DNA of 64,000 bases. Origin: Methylococcaceae bacterium (GTDB lineage Bacteria > Pseudomonadota > Gammaproteobacteria > Methylococcales > Methylomonadaceae). Positions 2,720-44,201 of the stretch are shown here, piece by piece. The notes beneath the pieces were generated by a model, which ran no database searches, was not told the DNA's origin, and saw only the letters and a list, made by a program, of their open reading frames with translations. The DNA lies in contig JABFSH010000015.1 of assembly GCA_013140705.1 (NCBI GenBank), positions 1 through 64,000 on the forward strand. Reading direction: 5' to 3'. Both the position numbers and the translations under genes were made by a program. Every line of letters starts with the position of its first letter. Position 1 is the first letter of the stretch.

Positions 2720-4285
2720 TTATTTTCTGAACATTTCCAACATGCGGCGAGTGACTAAAAAGCCACCGGCGATATTGATGGATGCAATGAGAATGGACAA
2801 TCCCGCAAGTACGCTGATGGCTGTGCCGGGCGAAGAAATCTGCACCAATGCGCCGATGACAATAATGCCGCTAATGGCGTTGGTTACGCTCATTAAAGGG
2901 GTATGCAGCGAAGCAGTTACATTCCAGATCACCTGATAGCCAATAAAGCAGGCGAGAACGAAGACAGTAAAATGTGACATGAATGAAGCGGGAGCCACTG
3001 AGCCGATACCAAACAAAGCGAGGCCACCGATGATCAAAGGCAGGAATTGCTTGATGGATTCCGGAATGATCGGCTTTTTTTGTTGAGCCACTACTGCTGG
3101 ATAAGCCGGGGCTTCAGTCTGAGGTGGCGGCGCTACCTTGAGGGTCGGAGGTGGTGGTGGCCAAGTGATTTTTCCTTCTTTTATGACAGTACTGCCGCGT
3201 ATCATTTCATCGTCCATATTGACGTTGATAACACCATTTTTTTCAGGGCAAAGCTCAGTTAATAAATGTCTCAAGTTAGTTGCGTAAAGCTGACTAGCCT
3301 GATTGGCAAGGCGGCTAGGCAGGTTGGTGTAACCAATCAGGGTGACACCATGTTTTACTACAACCTTGTCTTTTTCGGTCAATTCGCAGTTGCCGCCTTG
3401 TTCGGCCGCCAGGTCAACGATGACACTGCCGGGTTTCATGGAGGTCACCATGGCTTGCGTGATCAATTTTGGCGCCGGTTTACCGGGAATCAGGGCTGTG
3501 GTGACGATGATGTCCACTTCCATGGCTTGTCTGGCAAACAAGGCCATTTCGGCTTCGATAAATTCCTTGGACATGGTTTTGGCATAGCCGCCCACGCCAG
3601 AGCCTTCTTCCTTGAAGTCCAGCATCAAAAACTCAGCATCCATGCTTTCGATTTGTTCTTTGACTTCCGGTCGTGTATCAAACGCTCTGACAATCGCGCC
3701 CATGCTTTTGGCAGCGCCGATGGCAGCCAGGCCGGCAACTCCGGCGCCAATGACTAAAACCTTGGCGGGCGGAATTTTTCCGGCAGCGGTAATTTGGCCG
3801 GTGAAAAAACGTCCGAAATGTTGGGCCGCTTCAACAATGGCGCGATAACCGGCAATATTGGCCATGGAACTTAAAGCATCCAGTTTTTGCGCTCTGGATA
3901 TGCGCGGCACGCTATCCATTGCCAGCACGGTTGCTTCTTTGGCAGCCAGTTTTTGCATTAAATCTTCATTTTGGGCCGGCCAGATAAAACTGATTAAATG
4001 ACCGCCTTGGGACAGCATGTCAATTTCATCGATTGCTAATTCGGGATGTTGTTCCGGAGCGCGCACTTTCATGACGATATCGGATTTTTTCCATAATGAT
4101 TTGACACTTTTTACGATTTCAACACCGGCTTCTTTGTAGGCTTCGTCGGAAATATCGGCGCCTAAACCTGCGCCGCTTTCGATACATACCGAAAATCCCA
4201 GTTTTATTAGTTGTTCGGCAGCTTCGGGTGTCGTCGCCACACGTTTTTCACCTTGGTGAATTTCTTTCGGTATACCAATCTTCAT
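2720..4285 (-). CDS. pntA: NAD(P) transhydrogenase alpha subunit PntA
   Basis: This is the NAD(H)-binding alpha subunit of the membrane transhydrogenase. I place the start at 4285, where the protein reads [15 protein letters not shown], the usual PntA N-terminus. An AGGAG ribosome site lies just upstream, and the frame's ~69-codon upstream extension has no family similarity. The resulting 521 residues comprise the alanine-dehydrogenase-like domain I (with [20 protein letters not shown] as the Rossmann loop), a Pro-rich linker near residues 380-400, and four hydrophobic helices at the C-terminus. It is therefore the one-chain enterobacterial form, not the split PntAA/PntAB. It is first in the operon with pntB. 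Confidence 0.95.
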
Positions 4286-12624: not shown

Positions 12625-12649
12625 TGGTGCCCCAAGGCGGATTCGAACC
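12625..12649. repeat. Distal attachment site (tRNA 3' end duplicate)
   Basis: These 25 bases (beginning TGGTGCCCCAAGG) are identical to 19696-19720, the CCA end and T-arm part of tRNA-Arg. Identity stops abruptly at 12650, so this is the duplicated core left by site-specific integration. Confidence 0.9.
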
Positions 12650-12701
12650 TTACACTGTGTGCCGCTAATAGTGCGACTTCTTGGTTTTTAATTTTTGAAT
12701 A

Positions 12702-12721
12702 TACCGTCAAATGTACCGTCA
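12702..12721. promoter_or_regulatory. Putative integrase arm-type sites, distal end
   Basis: TACCGTCA occurs at 12702-12709 and 12714-12721, spaced 12 bases apart. The same 8-mer occurs four times at the integrase end (19523-19584). Repeats shared only by the two ends of the element are what arm-binding sites of a tyrosine integrase look like. Confidence 0.65.
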
Positions 12722-12820
12722 TTTATTCAATGTGCCTGTCGCTTGGTCACTATATATGGATAGCCAGGCAATGCAGGTGACTGCTTCATTCAGTAAACAA
12801 TACGAATCAGCCACCTGCAG

Positions 12821-13060
12821 TCACTCAACCAGGTGGTATGACGTCACGTCAACCGTAGGGGGCCCGTTTACACGATGCCCTCGTATAACGCCGTCACGCC
12901 CTAAATTGATTGCAGCGGATGATAAGCACGTCAATGCCTCACACAGCAACAGAAACGCTTGGTGGTGCCTTCTATCCTGATCAACACCATCTCTTAGCCA
13001 GGCATTGCGGACACACTCGGCCAATGCGTGTAAGCACTCAATGTCAGTAGCAATGCACAT
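12821..13060 (-). CDS. Small protein of unknown function in the element
   Basis: I do not recognise it. I chose the ATG at 13060 because it lies four bases past the stop of the preceding gene, whereas the longer frame would overlap that gene by 65 bases. The 79-residue product begins MCIATDIECLHALAEC and is mostly helical, with Ala, Leu and Cys in the first 55 residues and a basic, Gly/Pro-containing tail. It is the last gene of the coupled cargo block and ends about 170 bases before the distal attachment site. Confidence 0.5.
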   Translation of the reverse strand: MCIATDIECLHALAECVRNAWLRDGVDQDRRHHQAFLLLCEALTCLSSAAINLGRDGVIRGHRVNGPPTVDVTSYHLVE

Positions 13061-13064
13061 GGCA

Positions 13065-13802
13065 TCACCGTTTTGCAGCGTTGTTAGGCATGATGCCCGT
13101 TTTCTTCCTGTTTGCAGATTCAACATCAATGATCTCCTCGTCGTTTACTCCAGCCTGGCTAGAAGCTGACAATAACGTATTTATCGAACGTTCGACGATA
13201 CTTAATTGCGTGTCTACATCCTGTATGTCGTCAATCAGGCCAGCACGTCCTTTAGCGTCAAGAGATACATCGGATTTCGCTTTAATCAATTCTCTTTTTG
13301 ATTCTATTAACTTCCCATATTTTAATTTCAAGAAGTCGTATTGCTTCCCTGCCGTTTTACTCATGGTCGGCTTCTTCGCCTCATCAATCTTTAACTGATT
13401 AAGCTCATGAGTTTGCCGTCTACCTTCATAATCGGTCGTATCGTGATACGTTGCTTTGTCTTTGGCGGCTGCCATGTCTGCAGCCTGTTGAATCTCAATC
13501 GGTGAGCGTTCATCGGCATAGGCATCAGTTAACGTCTTCTTCTGCAGCTCCGCTTCAGCGACCTTACTGACATTGGTCGGGTCTGTTGTGAACTCAAGGT
13601 TAGAGGTTAACTGATCCTTTCGAGCTTGAGCCGTGCGACCTTCCTGCCGTATAAACGCTTCTTCGATACGTCGTTCTTTATCGATCTGACCTTGATTGTC
13701 ACGGGCTTCCTTTGCAAGCTTCTCGTTATTTTCAATTATCAGATCCGACCCCTCACGCAAACCTTTTCCAAATCCAGTCAATGCACCTGCTAATATGCCC
13801 AT
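13065..13802 (-). CDS. Coiled-coil protein with glycine-rich hydrophobic N-terminus, unknown
   Basis: No family is recognised. The ATG at 13802 overlaps the stop of the preceding gene by one base (TGATG), implying translational coupling. The 245-residue product opens with a Gly/Ala/Leu amphipathic segment (MGILAGALTGFGKGLREG). A long charged region rich in Lys, Glu, Gln and Asp follows, predicted mostly helical (about residues 20-215). This layout resembles DNA-pilot or internal virion proteins of small phages, but the resemblance is of composition only. A membrane-active or virion-associated role is a hypothesis. It belongs to a four-gene coupled block of the integrated element. Confidence 0.7.
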   Translation of the reverse strand: MGILAGALTGFGKGLREGSDLIIENNEKLAKEARDNQGQIDKERRIEEAFIRQEGRTAQARKDQLTSNLEFTTDPTNVSKVAEAELQKKTLTDAYADERSPIEIQQAADMAAAKDKATYHDTTDYEGRRQTHELNQLKIDEAKKPTMSKTAGKQYDFLKLKYGKLIESKRELIKAKSDVSLDAKGRAGLIDDIQDVDTQLSIVERSINTLLSASSQAGVNDEEIIDVESANRKKTGIMPNNAAKR

Positions 13803-14008
13803 CACACACCCCCATTCGTTATGAACCGATAAGCCTCTTCAGGTGTCATCGTGCATTTACTATTGTTAGCCGTTGACCTACGTCGTGGCGGTGTTCGATT
13901 GATCAGTATCATGTATTGCTCCTGAGCACTAAGGCCTTCGGGCATTACCTCATCGATGTCGGTGCCGAATGTATCTTCCAGCCTGGCTATGCGTTGTTCA
14001 ATGTTCAT
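13802..14008 (-). CDS. Small coupled protein of unknown function in the element
   Basis: The 68-residue product starts MNIEQRIARLEDTFGT, a short heptad-like helix, followed by a basic Pro/Arg stretch (TPPRRRSTANNS) and an acidic end. Its ATG overlaps the stop of the upstream DUF5681-like gene by four bases (ATGA). Its own stop overlaps the next start, so it is locked into the operon. I do not recognise a family. The two-sided overlap is the main evidence that it is real. Confidence 0.65.
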   Translation of the reverse strand: MNIEQRIARLEDTFGTDIDEVMPEGLSAQEQYMILINRTPPRRRSTANNSKCTMTPEEAYRFITNGGV

Positions 14009-14400
14009 TTTGCTTGCTCCTCTAATTTTTCAATACGTGTAATAAGCTCTGTTGATTCGATAAGTTTTGACTGGCCTGCCAATGTAGTAAGGATCAGTGC
14101 CGCTGCATCCGGTTGCAATTCACCCCGGCTAACAGATTCAATGATACTCTGACCAACATTAGCCAGGCTGTCGTTGACTGCTATATCAAACCGGACCGGC
14201 TCTGCTTGTGGCTTCAATGCTGGCAATGCTCGTTCGAGTAATAACCGCGCCGCCATCACGTCACCACACATAGCTTGTGCGATCAGCGTCCTGATAATCT
14301 CAGGCAATGCATGGGCGATCTGATCACGCAAGGGTTGAATCTTGGCAGACCCTTTGGGCTTGCCTGCCGGATTCCCGGAGATACCTTTTTTAAATGCCAT
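14005..14400 (-). CDS. DUF5681-like phage/element protein
   Basis: I place the start at 14400, where an AAGGA site precedes MAFKKGISGNPAGKPKGSAK. This Gly/Pro/Lys-rich opening is the hallmark of DUF5681-type proteins found in phages and mobile elements. The rest of the 131 residues is helical, with an Ala-rich segment (QAMCGDVMAARLLLERALP) and a C-terminal Glu/Lys coiled-coil-like end. Some members lie near terminase genes, but I cannot show a packaging role here. It heads the coupled cargo block. Confidence 0.7.
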   Translation of the reverse strand: MAFKKGISGNPAGKPKGSAKIQPLRDQIAHALPEIIRTLIAQAMCGDVMAARLLLERALPALKPQAEPVRFDIAVNDSLANVGQSIIESVSRGELQPDAAALILTTLAGQSKLIESTELITRIEKLEEQAK

Positions 14401-14420
14401 GTTGAAATTTCCTTGATATA

Positions 14421-14721
14421 TCAAATTGGGTCTTCAACCAAAACCGAGAAATAAGGAAACCGTTTTGTCGGATGAAGACCATGGAATGCGATTGCAATCA
14501 GATCACCCGGCTTGGCGTATTGATCCACCAATTGCCTATCAACATCCTGTGCCAATTCGACCTTAACGATTTCAGCATTGTCGGTTTCTACATACTACAG
14601 CCACAAACATAAGATCGATTTTGGCAATCGTGCCGGTTAAAATTTCGCCGGGCTTGGGTGCCCAAAATCGATATGCGTTGTTTTCAAGTTGCTCTCTCAT
14701 TTTCATCAATGTAGTTTTCAT
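14421..14721 (-). pseudogene. Frameshifted small gene of the element (~100 codons)
   Basis: Starting at the ATG at 14721, preceded by a GAGG site, the frame reads MKTTLMKMREQLENN..., then ILTGTIAKIDLMFVAVV, and stops early. In a second frame the sequence continues as YVETDNAEIVKVELAQ, then a GDLIAIAFHG stretch, and ends ...VEDPI at 14421. The total of 301 bases is 100 codons plus one, consistent with a single inserted base near 14590-14600. The beta-rich pattern is OB-fold-like, but I name no function. It could also be a programmed frameshift or a sequencing error. It lies between the origin region and the cargo block. Confidence 0.65.
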
Positions 14722-14875
14722 TTTTGTATCCTCGTTTCAAATACTGTTTTTTCTGAAAAAGCCTATACCATGAACTGACAAAACTGACTAAATGGGGTTT
14801 AGCTGGTTCTGCTCAGAATATTGCTGCCGGTAAATTTTTTTAATTCTGATTTCATTTTTACATTCCTAAAATCTT

Positions 14876-15150
14876 TTTTTAGAAAAGGTTGTGTTTGAAA
14901 GTGCAGAAGTGCAGGAATCTTCTACAGACCGCGCCGTTCGTGGCTTTACGGGCTGCACTTGTGCCTATCAAAAGTGCAGCAAAAGTGCAGCACAAGTGCA
15001 GGGTTAAGATTAGAAAAATAATTCCTGCACTTCTAATGCACTTCTAATGCACTTTTGAACACCAAAAGTGCAGCCTTAAAGTTAAATACTATCAATGACT
15101 TAAAGCCATTCCTGCACTTATGCACTTTTGTTTACAACCTTTTCTAAAAA
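14876..15150. repeat. Iteron-rich palindromic region, putative replication origin of the element
   Basis: A 43-base arm at 14876-14918 is mirrored with few mismatches by 15108-15150. Both contain TTTTTAGAAAAGGTTGT and AAGTGCAGGAAT. Between and within the arms, the core AGTGCA(G/T) occurs 12 times on both strands: near 14900, 14908, 14953, 14973, 14984, 14995, 15025, 15036, 15047, 15067, 15112 and 15120. It abuts the 3' end of the primase/helicase gene, the place where P4-like replicons carry cis-acting repeats. An origin recognised by that protein is the simplest reading. The interval from 14722 to the left arm shows no clear gene. Confidence 0.75.
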
Positions 15151-17735
15151 TAATGTTTTTCTAAAACAATACCTTTATCAACCTTCCGTTTTTCGAACCC
15201 CAATGCCTCCATACGCTTAGAAAAGTTGCTACGTCCCAACGGTTTATGACCGGCGTCAATGCAGAAGATTTTGTAGTTTAAGTGCGCTAGTTTCACTGTT
15301 GATACATATATAGAATGAGGTGAAGATTCTCTCAAATCCTCCTCAAACATTGCCACTGAATCAGCCTCTTTCAAAAATTGCTGCTTGAAGTTTTCGCACT
15401 CACGAGAGATAAAAATGTCGCGATTTTTTATTACCTGTTCTGCTCCTTCAATTATCCAGTTAAGAACCCCCGCCTTATCATTGAGTATTTTTTTGTGTAA
15501 ATCCCTATCCTGCAAACCATCTGGGATCATCACATTAAATGGGATAATTAAGAGCCTCCGGTAAAAGCCGTGAGTATGTTCAATGTTTGCTGATTCCATT
15601 CTGTTAATATTGAAAATCAACTTGGCATAATCGGTCATCAGAAACGGATCGCGATACGGGAGCCGGGCTTCGACAGGTTCCCCAGATGCCAGCGTCTTGA
15701 ACATACCCGCGTCAATACGCGTAAGACGTATGTCGGTACCGTAGTTTACAATTTTGTCCTTGATCATCGCGCGATGATATCCCTTATCATCGGTCAACGA
15801 TTCAAGGGAATAATTAGAAATGTTGTCAGACCCAACAACACCATTAAGCACTTCAAAAAATACTGACTTACCATTAGCGCCGGTTCCAAATAAGAAGAAG
15901 ATTTTCTCCATTTTTAGACCTTTAACAAACAGGTAACCAGCAACCTGCTGTAATGTTTTTCTGGTGTCTGCATCGGGCAAAACCTGGGTCAAATAATCGA
16001 GAAAAACAGAATTAACCGCTGAAGCGTCGTAAGCGAAATCAAGCTGATGTGTCAAAAAATCCTGACACTCAAATGGCTTTAAGGTCACGCCTTTTTCACT
16101 CAATACTAATGATCCGTTTTTCAGATTAATGATCGACTGTTTATTAACGGAGCTTTCTATAAAGAAACCGTCCTGCAACGTTTGTTTGAACAAGGTATCC
16201 ACAAAACCGCAATGTCTACACTCGATTTCAGTGTAACTCATCCGAATTGCGGCCTCCTTTAGTAACTGCTTCACTTCTCCATCAACTAATGAAACCCAAT
16301 GTGCACCGTTGTATATGTAGAAGAATCCAGCATTGTGAATCAGATTCCAGTTGTTCCGGCGTGCTGTCTCAATCAGCACGTGGATTATTGCAACGACGTA
16401 ATGTTTGACGCGAGGCAAATCGCCAGATGTACCTTGTTGCCAGCCCAGCGCAATGCAGATGTCGATTAAAGGTACTGGCTGGATGTTTGCAAGCAGCATC
16501 GCGACTGCAGTAGTCTTGACTTGATCGTTCTGGTTAACAAGGCTAGTAACCTGCTTAGCTTGCTTGGGTATTGCGTGTAGGAAATACTTACAGCCACCGT
16601 GAGCCATTGAATTTATGTAAGGTTTGATGCCATTATTCCAGTAAAATTTAGCCGTCGTTGCACCGTACTCGACACCTTCCACCGGATCAGCAAGCGCTCG
16701 ACCATCGTATGCTTCAGGGTTCGCCAGCACGTCAGCAACGGTTACAGTACCAGTCGTAAACTGTAACGGTTGCTGACCATATAAGTCGCGGCAATCGCTC
16801 GATACCATCGCATCAACAGCCGCACGAGCGGCACCGGTATCGACGCCTGCTGCAACCATATTGCTAACCTTGGCATCAGCCCAGGTCAAACACTTAGCCG
16901 TACTCAATGGTTTTGCGGCTTGGATGGCGCCAGCTTGTAACCACTCAAGCCATTGCTGCACAACCTCTGACAAGTTGAGCAGCATAGTCGTGTCGAGCGC
17001 ATTACCTTCGGTGTATTGGGTCTCAGGAGCTGTATACGACAAGCCAGTTCCGTCTATTATCGGAGGGGCTACAAAATCAAGACGCTCTGGACTGAACACA
17101 GCCCCATCGATAGGGCTGCGAATCAATGCTGAACCGTTGGCCGCCAATGCGATGTAGCCGTGGCCACTAAGCCACAACCGATCGAACAGCGTTCGCCCGT
17201 AGCGGGGAATGTCAGCAGCATTTTGAACGGGAATGTAAAAATGAAAACCTCCGTCTAGCTTAGGCACCCCGCCTTCACGATGCACGCCCGCCGACACGCT
17301 GCCTCGAACGACCCGGGCTGCCTGCCCGATTGCTGGATCAATGCCGATCAGTGTGTTGATTAATTCATCAGGCGTAAACGACTTGCCGTACTCGCTGGGA
17401 TCGCGATCCAGCATCAGAATGCCTGGCTCGTTTTGATATTGAAAGAACCTCTTCGACCGCGATACGATGCCGACCTCTGGTTGTTCCTTTCCACTTGTTG
17501 TGATGGTGACCTGCCGAGGCAATTTAGGGATAGGAACACCATAACCAAATGCTACATTAGAAGGAGCGTCATCGAGCGATTCTGCAAACTTCTCGAATGT
17601 CGTGTTTACGTGTTTGGCCACGCCGCTTGTCATTTGCGCGGCAGGTGTTTTAACGATGGTCCCGTCTGTACTCAGCGAATAACGTTTTGTAAGCGGCGTT
17701 GAGCTTTGAAATGTAGTGAAATTAATATCAGCCAT
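15144..17735 (-). CDS. Primase-polymerase / SF3 helicase replication protein
   Basis: This is the likely replication initiator of the element. The N-terminal third looks like an archaeo-eukaryotic primase domain, with an acidic pair in LMLDRD (about residues 107-112 from the chosen start), a His in the GGFHFYI motif and a later Asp in RSPIDG. The C-terminal half is a D5-type superfamily 3 helicase with Walker A GTGANGKS (about 617-624) and downstream arginine-containing segments (FYRRLLIIPF). The ATG at 17735 overlaps the previous small ORF by eight bases, and the upstream GTG is an alternative. A CxxC motif pair (CRHCG) lies mid-protein. The gene ends inside the right arm of the iteron palindrome. 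Residue assignments in the primase part are by pattern only. Confidence 0.88.
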   Translation of the reverse strand: MADINFTTFQSSTPLTKRYSLSTDGTIVKTPAAQMTSGVAKHVNTTFEKFAESLDDAPSNVAFGYGVPIPKLPRQVTITTSGKEQPEVGIVSRSKRFFQYQNEPGILMLDRDPSEYGKSFTPDELINTLIGIDPAIGQAARVVRGSVSAGVHREGGVPKLDGGFHFYIPVQNAADIPRYGRTLFDRLWLSGHGYIALAANGSALIRSPIDGAVFSPERLDFVAPPIIDGTGLSYTAPETQYTEGNALDTTMLLNLSEVVQQWLEWLQAGAIQAAKPLSTAKCLTWADAKVSNMVAAGVDTGAARAAVDAMVSSDCRDLYGQQPLQFTTGTVTVADVLANPEAYDGRALADPVEGVEYGATTAKFYWNNGIKPYINSMAHGGCKYFLHAIPKQAKQVTSLVNQNDQVKTTAVAMLLANIQPVPLIDICIALGWQQGTSGDLPRVKHYVVAIIHVLIETARRNNWNLIHNAGFFYIYNGAHWVSLVDGEVKQLLKEAAIRMSYTEIECRHCGFVDTLFKQTLQDGFFIESSVNKQSIINLKNGSLVLSEKGVTLKPFECQDFLTHQLDFAYDASAVNSVFLDYLTQVLPDADTRKTLQQVAGYLFVKGLKMEKIFFLFGTGANGKSVFFEVLNGVVGSDNISNYSLESLTDDKGYHRAMIKDKIVNYGTDIRLTRIDAGMFKTLASGEPVEARLPYRDPFLMTDYAKLIFNINRMESANIEHTHGFYRRLLIIPFNVMIPDGLQDRDLHKKILNDKAGVLNWIIEGAEQVIKNRDIFISRECENFKQQFLKEADSVAMFEEDLRESSPHSIYVSTVKLAHLNYKIFCIDAGHKPLGRSNFSKRMEALGFEKRKVDKGIVLEKHYF

Positions 17736-17913
17736 GACGAACACCGTGTAGCGATTTCAATCGCGCGATTAATTCCAGTTGGCGTTGTACGTTGGCTTCG
17801 AGAATCGTTATAACACATTGATAACCGGATGATTTCGTGTTAATCTGACATTGCTGTTCTGTATTTGTTCTGCCCCGATTCGTACTCGGGGCGGGCGATA
17901 TCGGATGGCTCAT
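17728..17913 (-). CDS. Small coupled protein between alpA and primase
   Basis: The 61-residue product is unrecognised. The ATG at 17913 shares one base with the alpA stop (TGATG), and the 3' end overlaps the primase start by eight bases, so the three genes form one coupled operon. The first ~30 residues are polar and disordered-looking. The second half (VITILEANVQRQLELIARLKSLHG) is a likely amphipathic helix. Its position suggests a small accessory of replication or regulation. The double overlap is the main evidence. Confidence 0.55.
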   Translation of the reverse strand: MSHPISPAPSTNRGRTNTEQQCQINTKSSGYQCVITILEANVQRQLELIARLKSLHGVRHG

Positions 17914-18116
17914 CACACATTCTCCCCACCACGATCTTCAGCACGACGCGCAATCCATTGATCAATTTCGGACTCCAAAAAACCTATAGTCCTAAGCGAG
18001 AGACGAACGCGCTTTGGAAATTCACCACGATCGAGAAGATTGTAGATGGATGACCTGGATAGACCCGTTTTGGAAATTACAGCGCGTAAACGTAAGATTT
18101 TGTTCTGATCCGACAT
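17913..18116 (-). CDS. AlpA-family excisionase/transcription regulator
   Basis: AlpA-type proteins are small winged-helix DNA binders that activate integrase genes or act as excision factors in P4-like elements. I place the start at 18116 (MSDQNKILRLRAV), with a GGAG site 7-8 bases upstream. The longer frame is unlikely. The 67 residues show the MerR-like fold signature: ISKTGLSRSSIYNLLDRGEFP as helix-turn-helix, then VRLSLRTIGFLESEIDQWIA. It is the first gene of the operon with the small ORF and the primase. A palindrome at 18140-18170 lies 24 bases ahead. Confidence 0.85.
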   Translation of the reverse strand: MSDQNKILRLRAVISKTGLSRSSIYNLLDRGEFPKRVRLSLRTIGFLESEIDQWIARRAEDRGGENV

Positions 18117-18139
18117 AAAAAACTCCATACTGGAATAGA

Positions 18140-18170
18140 CTATGTCGGTATTTTGATAGGCGCGACATAG
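18140..18170. promoter_or_regulatory. Putative operator upstream of the alpA-like gene
   Basis: CTATGTCG (18140-18147) and CGACATAG (18163-18170) are perfect inverted 8-mers separated by 15 bases. The pair sits 24-54 bases before the alpA-like start. A dimeric regulator site controlling this leftward operon is plausible. I found no convincing promoter boxes to anchor it. Confidence 0.45.
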
Positions 18171-18317
18171 CAAACGATGGGCTATTAACCCGTTTCGTCT
18201 ACGTACATCGGCCAGCAAGTCGGTGTTTTATATCGTAGTCAGTGTGATCCGGCCACGAAAAAATAAACACCTGCAGTCTAATTTAAATAAAATTGGACGT
18301 CAATAAAAATTTCTACA

Positions 18318-19523
18318 TCATATAGTGTGTCGATTAAACGGAATAATCACAGCGCCAGCCTTCAAGCCGTCCAGGTAATCCGCCCAGGCTTGCATCATTC
18401 GTCTACGCTCTTCCAGGTGTGCTGTCCGGTTGTAAGCACGCCCGTTCGGGTCTCGAACGGCATGTGCTAATTGATGCTCGATAAAATCAACGCGGAAGCC
18501 TAACACTTCATCAAGAATGGTTCGAGCCATTGCGCGGAAGCCGTGGGCTGTCATTTCATCCTTACCATAACCAAGTCGTTTAAGCGCACCGTTCAGCGTG
18601 TTCTCACTGATGCATCGTGAACCGTTGGGTGTTCTCTCACTTGGGAATACATAACGACCATGCCCGGTAAGCGGCCTTAATTCCTGCAATATCTCAACAA
18701 CCTGACTGGCTAATGGAACGATATGTTGCACTTGTGTTTTAGTAACGAAGTAACGCCATTCTTTAGTTGCAAAGTCAATGTGTGTCCATTCCATTGCGCG
18801 TAGTTCTCCAGGCCGTTGAAACAACATTGGTGCCAACTTCAACGCACACGCAACCGGGAACGATCCGCTATAGCCATCAATTGCGCGCAACAGTTCACCA
18901 GCCTTGACCGGCTCTGTGATTGCTGCAAAATGTTTTTTTGTATGAACTGATAAAGCGCCTTTTAAACTTACTGTAATATCACCCTCACATCGTGCAGTTG
19001 CCGCGCCATAACAAAAAACATTTGAATAGACTCGCAATGCACGCTTTGCGCTATAAACCGATCCGGTCGATTCGATGTGAGTTAAACATTTCAGTAAGTC
19101 TATGGGCTTAATCTCATCAATGTTCTTGCTCCCGATGCATTTAAATGCATAGCTAAGCAATCTTAATGGCCGATCGCTTTTATCATTACACTTCTTAGCC
19201 AGCCATTCGCGCGCTATCACTTCGAAGCTATTGGCTGAAGCTTCAGCTTTAGATTGCTTAACGGCCTTTCGGTTTTCGCCTGGATCAATGCCATCGGATA
19301 CTTGTTTTCGCGCTTCGTCACGCCGCTCTCTAGCTTGCTTCAGAGTGATGTCTGGATAGGTTCCCAATGCTAGTGTCTTGCGTTTACCTTCAAAACGATA
19401 ATCGAATCGAAAGTACTTTCCACCATTGTTGTGGATCAATAAAAACATACCCTTATCATCAGGCAATTTATAAGGCTTACCCTTTGATTTTGCTGCCTTG
19501 CAGGTGGTATCAGATAGTGACAT
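18318..19523 (-). CDS. int: Tyrosine integrase (DUF4102/P4 type)
   Basis: This site-specific recombinase integrates the element into the tRNA-Arg gene. The N-terminal ~85 residues are the DUF4102 arm-binding domain (KGMFLLI, FRFDYRFEGKRKTLALGTYPDITLKQAR). Catalytic residues are visible: Arg237 in QRPGELR, His327-x-x-Arg330 (HGFR), His354 (QLAH) and the nucleophile Tyr364 (RAYNR). The 401-residue length is standard and the site looks intact. It is the gene nearest the intact tRNA and reads away from it. A TACCGTCA repeat overlaps its start codon, so the protein may repress its own synthesis. Confidence 0.95.
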   Translation of the reverse strand: MSLSDTTCKAAKSKGKPYKLPDDKGMFLLIHNNGGKYFRFDYRFEGKRKTLALGTYPDITLKQARERRDEARKQVSDGIDPGENRKAVKQSKAEASANSFEVIAREWLAKKCNDKSDRPLRLLSYAFKCIGSKNIDEIKPIDLLKCLTHIESTGSVYSAKRALRVYSNVFCYGAATARCEGDITVSLKGALSVHTKKHFAAITEPVKAGELLRAIDGYSGSFPVACALKLAPMLFQRPGELRAMEWTHIDFATKEWRYFVTKTQVQHIVPLASQVVEILQELRPLTGHGRYVFPSERTPNGSRCISENTLNGALKRLGYGKDEMTAHGFRAMARTILDEVLGFRVDFIEHQLAHAVRDPNGRAYNRTAHLEERRRMMQAWADYLDGLKAGAVIIPFNRHTI

Positions 19524-19584
19524 GACGGTACATTGTCCGGGTGAGTTGAATGTACCGTCAAATATACCGTCAAATTTGACGGTA
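19523..19584. promoter_or_regulatory. Putative integrase arm-type sites, integrase end
   Basis: The 8-mer TACCGTCA occurs at 19553-19560 and 19565-19572, and inverted at 19523-19530 and 19577-19584. The last two direct and inverted copies form a near-palindrome. One copy overlaps the int start codon. Matching copies at the far end (12702-12721) support a role in integration and excision. Confidence 0.65.
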
Positions 19585-19626
19585 TGTCAAAGAATCTTAC
19601 TGTACTTTAATGAACACTAAACCCAT

Positions 19627-19658
19627 AAAAAAACCCGCTAGACTAGGTAATCTGCGGG
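19627..19658 (-). terminator. Intrinsic terminator between tRNA-Arg and int
   Basis: On the leftward strand, a stem formed by CCCGCTAGA (19634-19642) and TCTGCGGG (19651-19658, one bulge) is followed by seven T's (19627-19633 read in complement). It sits inside the element, 38 bases past the tRNA 3' end. It would stop tRNA transcription from running into int. Confidence 0.75.
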
Positions 19659-19695
19659 CTTAATGGGCTTCGTTGAATCTTAAAAAATGTACAGT

Positions 19696-19772
19696 TGGTG
19701 CCCCAAGGCGGATTCGAACCGCCGACCTGTCCCTTAGGAGGGGACCGCTCTATCCTGCTGAGCTACCGGGGC
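19696..19772 (-). tRNA. tRNA-Arg, anticodon CCT
   Basis: The leftward gene begins GCCCCGGTAGCTCAGC and ends GGGGCACCA with the CCA encoded. The acceptor stem pairs GCCCCGG with its partner near the 3' end. The anticodon stem GTCCC/GGGAC encloses the 7-base loop CTCCTAA with anticodon CCT, decoding AGG. The T-loop GTTCGAATC is intact. The 3' 25 bases (19696-19720) are the integrase-proximal attachment site of the inserted element, and the gene stays whole after insertion. Confidence 0.95.
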
Positions 19773-43666: not shown

Positions 43667-44201
43667 AAAAAAATTAATGGGTTACGATCCACTAGCCTGG
43701 ATGGGTGAGGATACTGAAGGTGCGGTTCTAGAAGAATTGATTGAGGCAGCTGAGGCGGTTAAAGAACAACTTATTGATTCTGAAGGCGAAATTAATGCTG
43801 ATTTTGATACGGAGAATCTAAGTCATGATAAGCATTCAGAGACTGAATACAGTGAGATCGATATGAACACAACAGTAGATTTACCTAAAGATGATGTCTC
43901 GGAGCAATCCTTTGTTAAAGATGTTGTTGAGTCGATTATAAAGTTGGAGGCAACATTAACCATTCAACATGTCGTTAAATTGCATGAAAAACTTAAGCAA
44001 ACTTATACTGCGCATGATGTAATTGAAATCAATGCTGGTCAGGTGTCATCTATAGACACAGCGACGTTGCAATTACTAGTTGCATTAAAAAAAGATGCTG
44101 CAAAGCAACAGAAATCGGTTGTTTTTGCTGAGCCATCAAGCCGGTTTATCGAATCGGCGGAATTGCTTGGATTGCTTGAGGTGTTTGACATTGATTCTTG
44201 A
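43650..44201 (+). CDS. STAS-domain protein of the chemotaxis cluster
   Basis: The 183-residue product has a short conserved-looking head (KKLMGYDPLAWMGEDTEG), a long acidic linker (residues ~20-85) and a C-terminal STAS domain (~87-183). The STAS region contains LHEKLKQTYTAHDVIEINAGQVSSIDTATLQLLVALKKDA, with the usual Asp-Thr/Ser site (IDTAT). STAS domains can be switched by phosphorylation, but no cognate kinase is visible here. It overlaps the ParA gene, so a link to array positioning or CheA assembly is possible but not shown. Confidence 0.85.
   Translation: MVTSDKKKLMGYDPLAWMGEDTEGAVLEELIEAAEAVKEQLIDSEGEINADFDTENLSHDKHSETEYSEIDMNTTVDLPKDDVSEQSFVKDVVESIIKLEATLTIQHVVKLHEKLKQTYTAHDVIEINAGQVSSIDTATLQLLVALKKDAAKQQKSVVFAEPSSRFIESAELLGLLEVFDIDS

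Follow-up and report, generated by a model that had tools for sequence, protein, structure and literature searches.

Mirrored iterons in a nested palindrome: the putative replication origin of a PICI-like satellite in a Methylococcaceae genome

Organisation of the repeat cluster

Immediately beyond a primase gene of a Methylococcaceae bacterium, in the window (the whole 64,000-nucleotide stretch analysed), lies an ordered cluster of short repeats, and the question is what such a cluster is for. A sequence-only reading had described twelve AGTGCA(G/T) words on both strands within about 230 bases, framed by 43-base inverted arms, and had taken the region for an origin recognized by the adjacent replication protein. 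All twelve copies were found, at 14900–15126. AGTGCAK is not enriched over the 64-kb window as a whole (19 observed against 15.2 expected, with at least 19 in 24 of 100 shuffles) and the signal is therefore one of clustering; the remaining 7 of the 19 matches are dispersed, with at most two in any other 275-bp stretch. In 2000 dinucleotide shuffles of 14876–15150 the word occurred 0.17 times on average and three times at most, which bears out the claim that this order is unlikely by chance.

The 43-nt outer arms (14876–14918 and 15108–15150) are 86% complementary, and the right one covers the final 7 bases of the primase ORF, an overlap that had also been noticed. A second pair, missed by the earlier reading, consists of 52-nt inner arms (14951–15002 and 15024–15075) with 79% complementarity. 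Both pairs are centred on 15013, and the 275 bp thus constitute a single nested imperfect palindrome, with 91 of 137 mirrored positions complementary, or 52 of 95 when the iterons are excluded, and a mirror score of 0.64 compared to a maximum of 0.45 among 200 shuffles. The iteron map, with strands and distances in bp, is an exact mirror: + 8 + 47 - 18 + 11 + 11 + (32) - 11 - 11 - 18 + 47 - 8 -. The AT content at 15002–15024 is 78%, against 61% in the region and 56% in the window. The iterons listed below were assigned by word match.

14876–15150, no strand: putative replication origin, nested 275-bp imperfect palindrome with centre 15013 (arms, shuffles, genome search)
14900–14914, +: outer iteron pair of the left arm, 14900–14906 and 14908–14914, 8 bp apart
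14922–14943, +: weak copy of motif M, CTACAGACCGCGCCGTTCGTGG, 16/22 to CTGTAAGCCGCGCCRTTACTGG (p 0.010 against 200 shuffles)
14953–14959, -: inverted iteron of the left arm
14973–15001, +: three direct iterons of the left arm, 11 bp apart (14973, 14984, 14995)
15003–15023, no strand: AT-rich centre, candidate melting site (AT content)
15025–15053, -: three direct iterons of the right arm, 11 bp apart (15025, 15036, 15047)
15067–15073, +: inverted iteron of the right arm
15112–15126, -: outer iteron pair of the right arm, 15112–15118 and 15120–15126

The integrated element

The cluster is located in an element of about 7.1 kb that is delimited by perfect 25-bp repeats and contains the following features.

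12625–12649, +: att repeat, left end, 25 bp, identical to 19696–19720
14005–14424, -: DUF5681 protein, 139 aa (profile search)
14715–14792, no strand: remnant of another repeat region (CTGACAAAACTGAC; matches to the sibling element L188)
15144–17744, -: rep, primase-helicase, 866 aa, TIGR01613 and DUF5906 (profile search)
15147–15359, -: C-terminal winged-helix (Pox_D5) domain of Rep, residues ~796–866, proposed iteron reader (profile and model)
17728–17916, -: 62-aa ORF
17913–18218, -: AlpA-family regulator (PF05930, 76.9 bits, cut-off 21)
18318–19523, -: tyrosine integrase, 401 aa
19696–19720, +: att repeat, right end, the 3' part of tRNA-Arg(CCT) at 19696–19772 (-)

The gene order is int-alpA-rep-ori on a single strand with att repeats at a tRNA, and int, alpA, the 62-aa ORF, rep, the DUF5681 gene and the next two ORFs are all on the minus strand. 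The element shows four traits of Gram-negative PICIs, namely an integrase with its own attachment site, an AlpA-type regulator, transcription in one direction, and a pri-rep gene followed by an ori in which two iteron sets flank an AT-rich region. As for the traits of P4-like satellites, an alpha-type primase-helicase is present (TIGR01613 above cut-off), a separate ori and crr sharing an iteron word were not seen, and the names sid, delta and psu (capsid sizing and decoration) do not occur among the Pfam and PHROGs matches of the scanned ORFs. The repeats TTGAATRTACCGTCAAATRTACCGTCA are found near both ends of the element, at 12695–12721, 19546–19572 and 19558–19584, and are possibly arm sites of the integrase.

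The palindrome very probably serves as the origin from which a phage satellite of PICI-like type, inserted at tRNA-Arg(CCT), replicates, because it lies 3' of rep, has mirrored iterons, an AT-rich centre and helical spacing, and shares its layout with relatives and with a tested origin; the earlier proposal that it is read by the adjacent replication protein is, from the sequence, the best-supported one. Since the site adjoins the stop codon it might instead be an operator array or a bidirectional terminator for a convergent end of rep, which we consider highly improbable, as twelve 11-bp-phased sites on both strands would exceed the usual terminator design and the listed genes of the element all run in one direction, leaving rep without a convergent partner.

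Comparison with known satellites

The tested origin is that of the E. coli PICI EcCICFT073, where a rep-ori segment sustains a plasmid and deletion of the ori lowers the colony number, as stated in PMC6092414. We located this origin in NC_004431 by gene order. Like the window element, EcCICFT073 has int, an alpA-like regulator, pri-rep and ori on one strand and, immediately 3' of rep, a central region with a set of iterons on either side, each the mirror of the other (+ 9 + 48 - 20 + 11 + 42 - 11 - 68 - 9 -). The symmetrical design, which had been put forward as a contrast to P4, is thus present in the window but is not peculiar to it, as EcCICFT073 and other relatives are mirrored too. The iteron word of EcCICFT073, TGTCTACC, is unrelated to AGTGCAG, its Rep shows only 24% identity to the window Rep over 275 residues, and motif M (see below) is exact in EcCICFT073 but weak in the window. 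By their description in PMC6092414, SaPI origins likewise lie 3' of rep and have an AT-rich region with a set of iterons on each side, whereas Gram-positive PICIs are, according to the same text, not transcribed in one direction.

The analogy to P4 turned out to be closer than first stated. The annotated type-1 repeats of the P4 ori (X51522; + 10 + 43 - 22 + 11 + 10 +) correspond to one arm of the window origin, with six repeats in the same order and on the same strands, spaced by 10, 43, 22, 11 and 10 bp as compared to 8, 47, 18, 11 and 11. The window Rep belongs to the P4 family of TIGR01613 and shows 23% identity to P4 alpha over 261 residues. P4 has one arm and a separate crr, while the window has a pair of such arms joined head to head, with no crr observed; P4 is also without motif M (best match 12/22). 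In P4 it is the crr that is located directly 3' of alpha, the annotated ori being over 2 kb distant, and by this position the window site could be a crr-like control or incompatibility locus with the true start elsewhere in the element. We regard this as unlikely, as the crr and ori of P4 share their word, whereas AGTGCAK forms a single cluster within 12625–19720, and in EcCICFT073 the site 3' of rep is the ori tested in PMC6092414. Read as an origin, the window site would be a further origin of PICI type, one whose mirror design is unusually exact, and would extend origins tested elsewhere to methane-oxidising bacteria; greater novelty attaches to the broader regularities, namely a spacing that is kept as the words change, and motif M.

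Position and spacing in related elements

Rep matches at E 1e-20 were found in 42 of the 237 genomes of the family, some of them covering the N-terminal half only, and when the Rep alignment was searched against 369 genomes sampled from the class (E 1e-30), only the genome of origin matched (1/369). The 3' flanks were compared for 20 loci with the C-terminal half of Rep (L003, L005–L014 and L016–L024), leaving out L004 and L015, which are on the same contigs as L010 and L003, respectively. The commonest 7-mer of the flank beats all 200 shuffles in 17 of 20 relatives, the misses being L016 (a two-letter word dropped by the filter), L018 and L021, and the mirror score beats all shuffles in 11 and is not significant in the other 9. 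The words vary among the relatives and include AAGTGCAG, AACAGCAT, AGTTGCAG, AACTCCACC, TTTGTCAC, TTTGTCAG, TTCGTCAT, AAGTCCAT and others, and the viral contig L195, with a Rep of 69% identity, has twelve copies of AGTGCAG in the same layout as the window origin.

Spacing was determined in 19 origins, namely L195 and 18 of the 20 relatives (all but the truncated L017 and L018, in which no word stands out clearly). With hand-chosen words, one mismatch allowed and two intermediate one-mismatch copies passed over, the distance from the outer pair to the inverted iteron is 42–48 bp at the right end in all 19, and at the left end 43–48 bp in 13, 56–57 bp in four and 93 bp in one, with one unmeasurable. 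Members of the outer pairs are 8 bp apart in 17 of 22 cases and 9 bp in five, and of 77 same-strand neighbours no more than 25 bp from each other, 40 show a spacing of 11 bp. The left gap of 56–57 bp, seen in L008, L009, L007 and L023, is one helical turn longer than the usual one of about 46 bp.

In the Methylomonadaceae relatives position and spacing thus appear to stay while the repeat word changes. Conservation of the repeats in homologous elements, on which the sequence-only reading had staked its case, is true of the layout and not of the sequence, since homologous sites mostly carry different words. This gives a measurable rule in which spacing and strand order are constant and the word is variable. 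The length of 275 bp and the inverted ends might also suggest the remnant of a MITE or another transposon with 43-bp terminal inverted repeats, which is hardly credible, as relatives have other sequence at the same place 3' of rep; a search of the 4.28-Mb genome for further copies (E 1e-3) matched only the site itself and its own reverse.

The replication protein and proposed initiation

Rep matches TIGR01613 with 157.6 bits (cut-off 108.7) and DUF5906 with 53.1 bits (cut-off 27.6), and the D5_N match of 19.7 is under the cut-off of 22.4. By sequence, the nearest relative of solved structure is 7ola, an entry named DNA primase that corresponds to a SaPI primase-helicase. Pox_D5 (PF03288) is matched by the last 77 residues, 790–866, with 33.2 bits (cut-off 21.4), and this C-terminal domain is modelled as a winged helix with a mean pLDDT of 91.7; for the helicase core, model confidence is low. 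Foldseek with the winged helix gave nothing below E 0.001, the best of the weak matches to Cdc6/Orc1 winged helices being at E 0.066. Once L017–L019 are excluded, covariation between the whole C-terminal domain and the iteron word is not significant (r 0.10, p 0.14). The only position that tracks the word is residue 859, on the strand of the wing, with a family-wise p of 0.033 for 16 loci and 0.0017 for 19 loci, and of 0.22 with one locus per word. From the profile and the model, the C-terminal winged helix is likely the reader of the iterons.

We propose that this domain docks on the iterons of both arms, and that each arm would be compacted into a complex through its outer pair and inverted iteron, which lie 45–48 bp apart. 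Together, these two complexes could then place a pair of Rep helicase rings, pointing opposite ways, on the AT-rich DNA at the centre, and both leading strands would be started by the primase at the N-terminus, giving bidirectional theta replication following excision. Rep and the iteron word would diverge jointly as a module, and co-resident elements should therefore not fire each other's origins. The natural Rep/ori pairs make specificity change and the avoidance of cross-firing testable questions.

A sibling element with a different putative origin

The same genome contains a sibling element, L188, which shares 1104 bp with the DUF5681 region of the window at 95.2% identity. Its primase gene has a DUF3987 helicase half, and repeats of the TGACAAAA type come after the gene (L188 1916–3755), so that two Rep/ori types, AGTGCA and TGACAAAA, share a genome and have almost the same cargo stretch. 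Positions 14735–14792 of the window (58 bp) are 98% identical to 3605–3662 in the repeat region of L188, and the overlapping 14715–14775 (61 bp) shows 92% identity to L188 3409–3469. The simplest reading seems to be that the window element replaced the helicase half and the origin together, because a 58-bp piece of L188-type repeat remains beside a different origin. Replication module swapping has a published precedent in the PLE satellites of Vibrio cholerae, where, according to PMC8263062, initiator domain and origin change together with restructuring of the iterons, and a phage nuclease mimicking RepA selects for the change. The PLE origin described there has three semi-palindromic repeats of ~30 bp and a RepA_N initiator, unlike the window.

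The DUF5681 protein presumably has a terminase-small-subunit-like role. Satellites need a packaging signal, and with the DUF5681 gene about 450 bp away the palindrome might act together with that protein as a site of packaging (pac/cos) or of dimer resolution. This is very unlikely, as the sibling has different repeats despite its 95% identical DUF5681 region, the word next to rep differs from locus to locus, and repeats are found 3' of rep also where the downstream genes differ, for example SSB in EcCICFT073.

Motif M

A GC-rich motif, M (AAGCCGCGCCRTTACTG, longer form CTGTAAGCCGCGCCRTTACTGG), sits as the weak copy listed above in the iteron gap of one arm of the putative origin; its 18-base form was not found in the window with up to three mismatches. 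Relatives have sequence resembling CTGTAAGCCGCGCCRTTACTGG in the corresponding gap, and among the 20 flanks M has p ≤0.01 in 12 and 0.02 in L018, and is not significant in L003, L009, L014, L017, L019, L020 and L024; L008 fits by construction, since the consensus was written from these loci. M is exact in L195, downstream of 4611, and in EcCICFT073, 190 bases past rep. A copy is located at 44187–44204 of L036, and Rfam scans of ten loci and of L036 37800–49000 gave nothing on the M copies. A limited search found no published description of M, motif letters being rarely printed in running text. In whole genomes, M matched with up to two mismatches in 156 of 237, but many genomes match the reversed control too and no support is drawn from this.

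In a viral collection AAGCCGCGCCRTTACTG was found in at least 120 stretches, compared to 12 for the reversed control, and a degenerate form in at least 120 compared to 33. The contexts of 80 loci among the matches listed were inspected, and they reduce to 29, of which 6 are pri-rep, 10 CUS-3-O-like and 13 others. EcCICFT073-type pri-rep accounts for 21 of the 80 loci, mostly close mutual copies, with M 191–194 bases past the match. In the CUS-3-O-like contexts M is inside the matched stretch in 9 of 10, and in L094 it lies 31 bases beyond; the copy in CUS-3 itself is inexact (19/22), though exact copies occur in similar O genes. M is further found 161 bases past a VapE-like gene (L108; a phage BLAST with this locus gave no match), 67 past a DUF5906 gene (L063), 321 past a prim-pol/AAA gene (L068) and, in the degenerate set, 38 and 62 past VapE-like genes (L272 and L224). 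L049 has a P4-alpha-like gene 3.3 kb from M, and in nine other contexts among the matches listed no initiator was identified. At least five copies of a 7-mer within 250 bp are present in 13 of 28 exact and 5 of 37 degenerate contexts, and in none of 25 and none of 9 controls. Around M the gap measures about 45–47 bp in L040, L042, L059 and the lambda-O loci L043 and L047, and otherwise 35 in L108, 56–58 in L094/L096 and 64 in L063.

M thus recurs among unrelated repeats beside VapE-like, DUF5906 and prim-pol genes and inside lambda-O-type genes. Tentatively, with the balance leaning slightly against, M could be a general origin element of phages and satellites, independent of the initiator family and fixed among freely changing iterons, perhaps as the binding site of a conserved host factor or as a DNA structure that is recognised. 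If so, one grammar of iterons, M in a gap of ~45–48 bp and an AT-rich core would serve D5/DUF5906, VapE-like, prim-pol and lambda-O initiators, and M would mark an unrecognised shared step in the replication start of unrelated phages and satellites.

Additional observations in related elements

A match to the C4 antisense RNA family (RF01695) is located at 3508–3592 (-) of the related element L011, with 44.8 bits (gathering score 45) and E 2.3e-05. Over the repeat region of L011 a MIR530 match was rejected as a known RNA, being at chance level and far under the gathering score. In L009 (G061:C1, ~213380–214390) a second array follows the AGTTGCAG origin, with 14 copies of AAGTTCAG in the 760-bp flank and further M-like copies, as if two differently worded origins were placed in tandem. 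Adjoining the L009 element there is a long repeat array (L190 380–6225) with many near-identical ORFs (LARAGTQIREAFT...).
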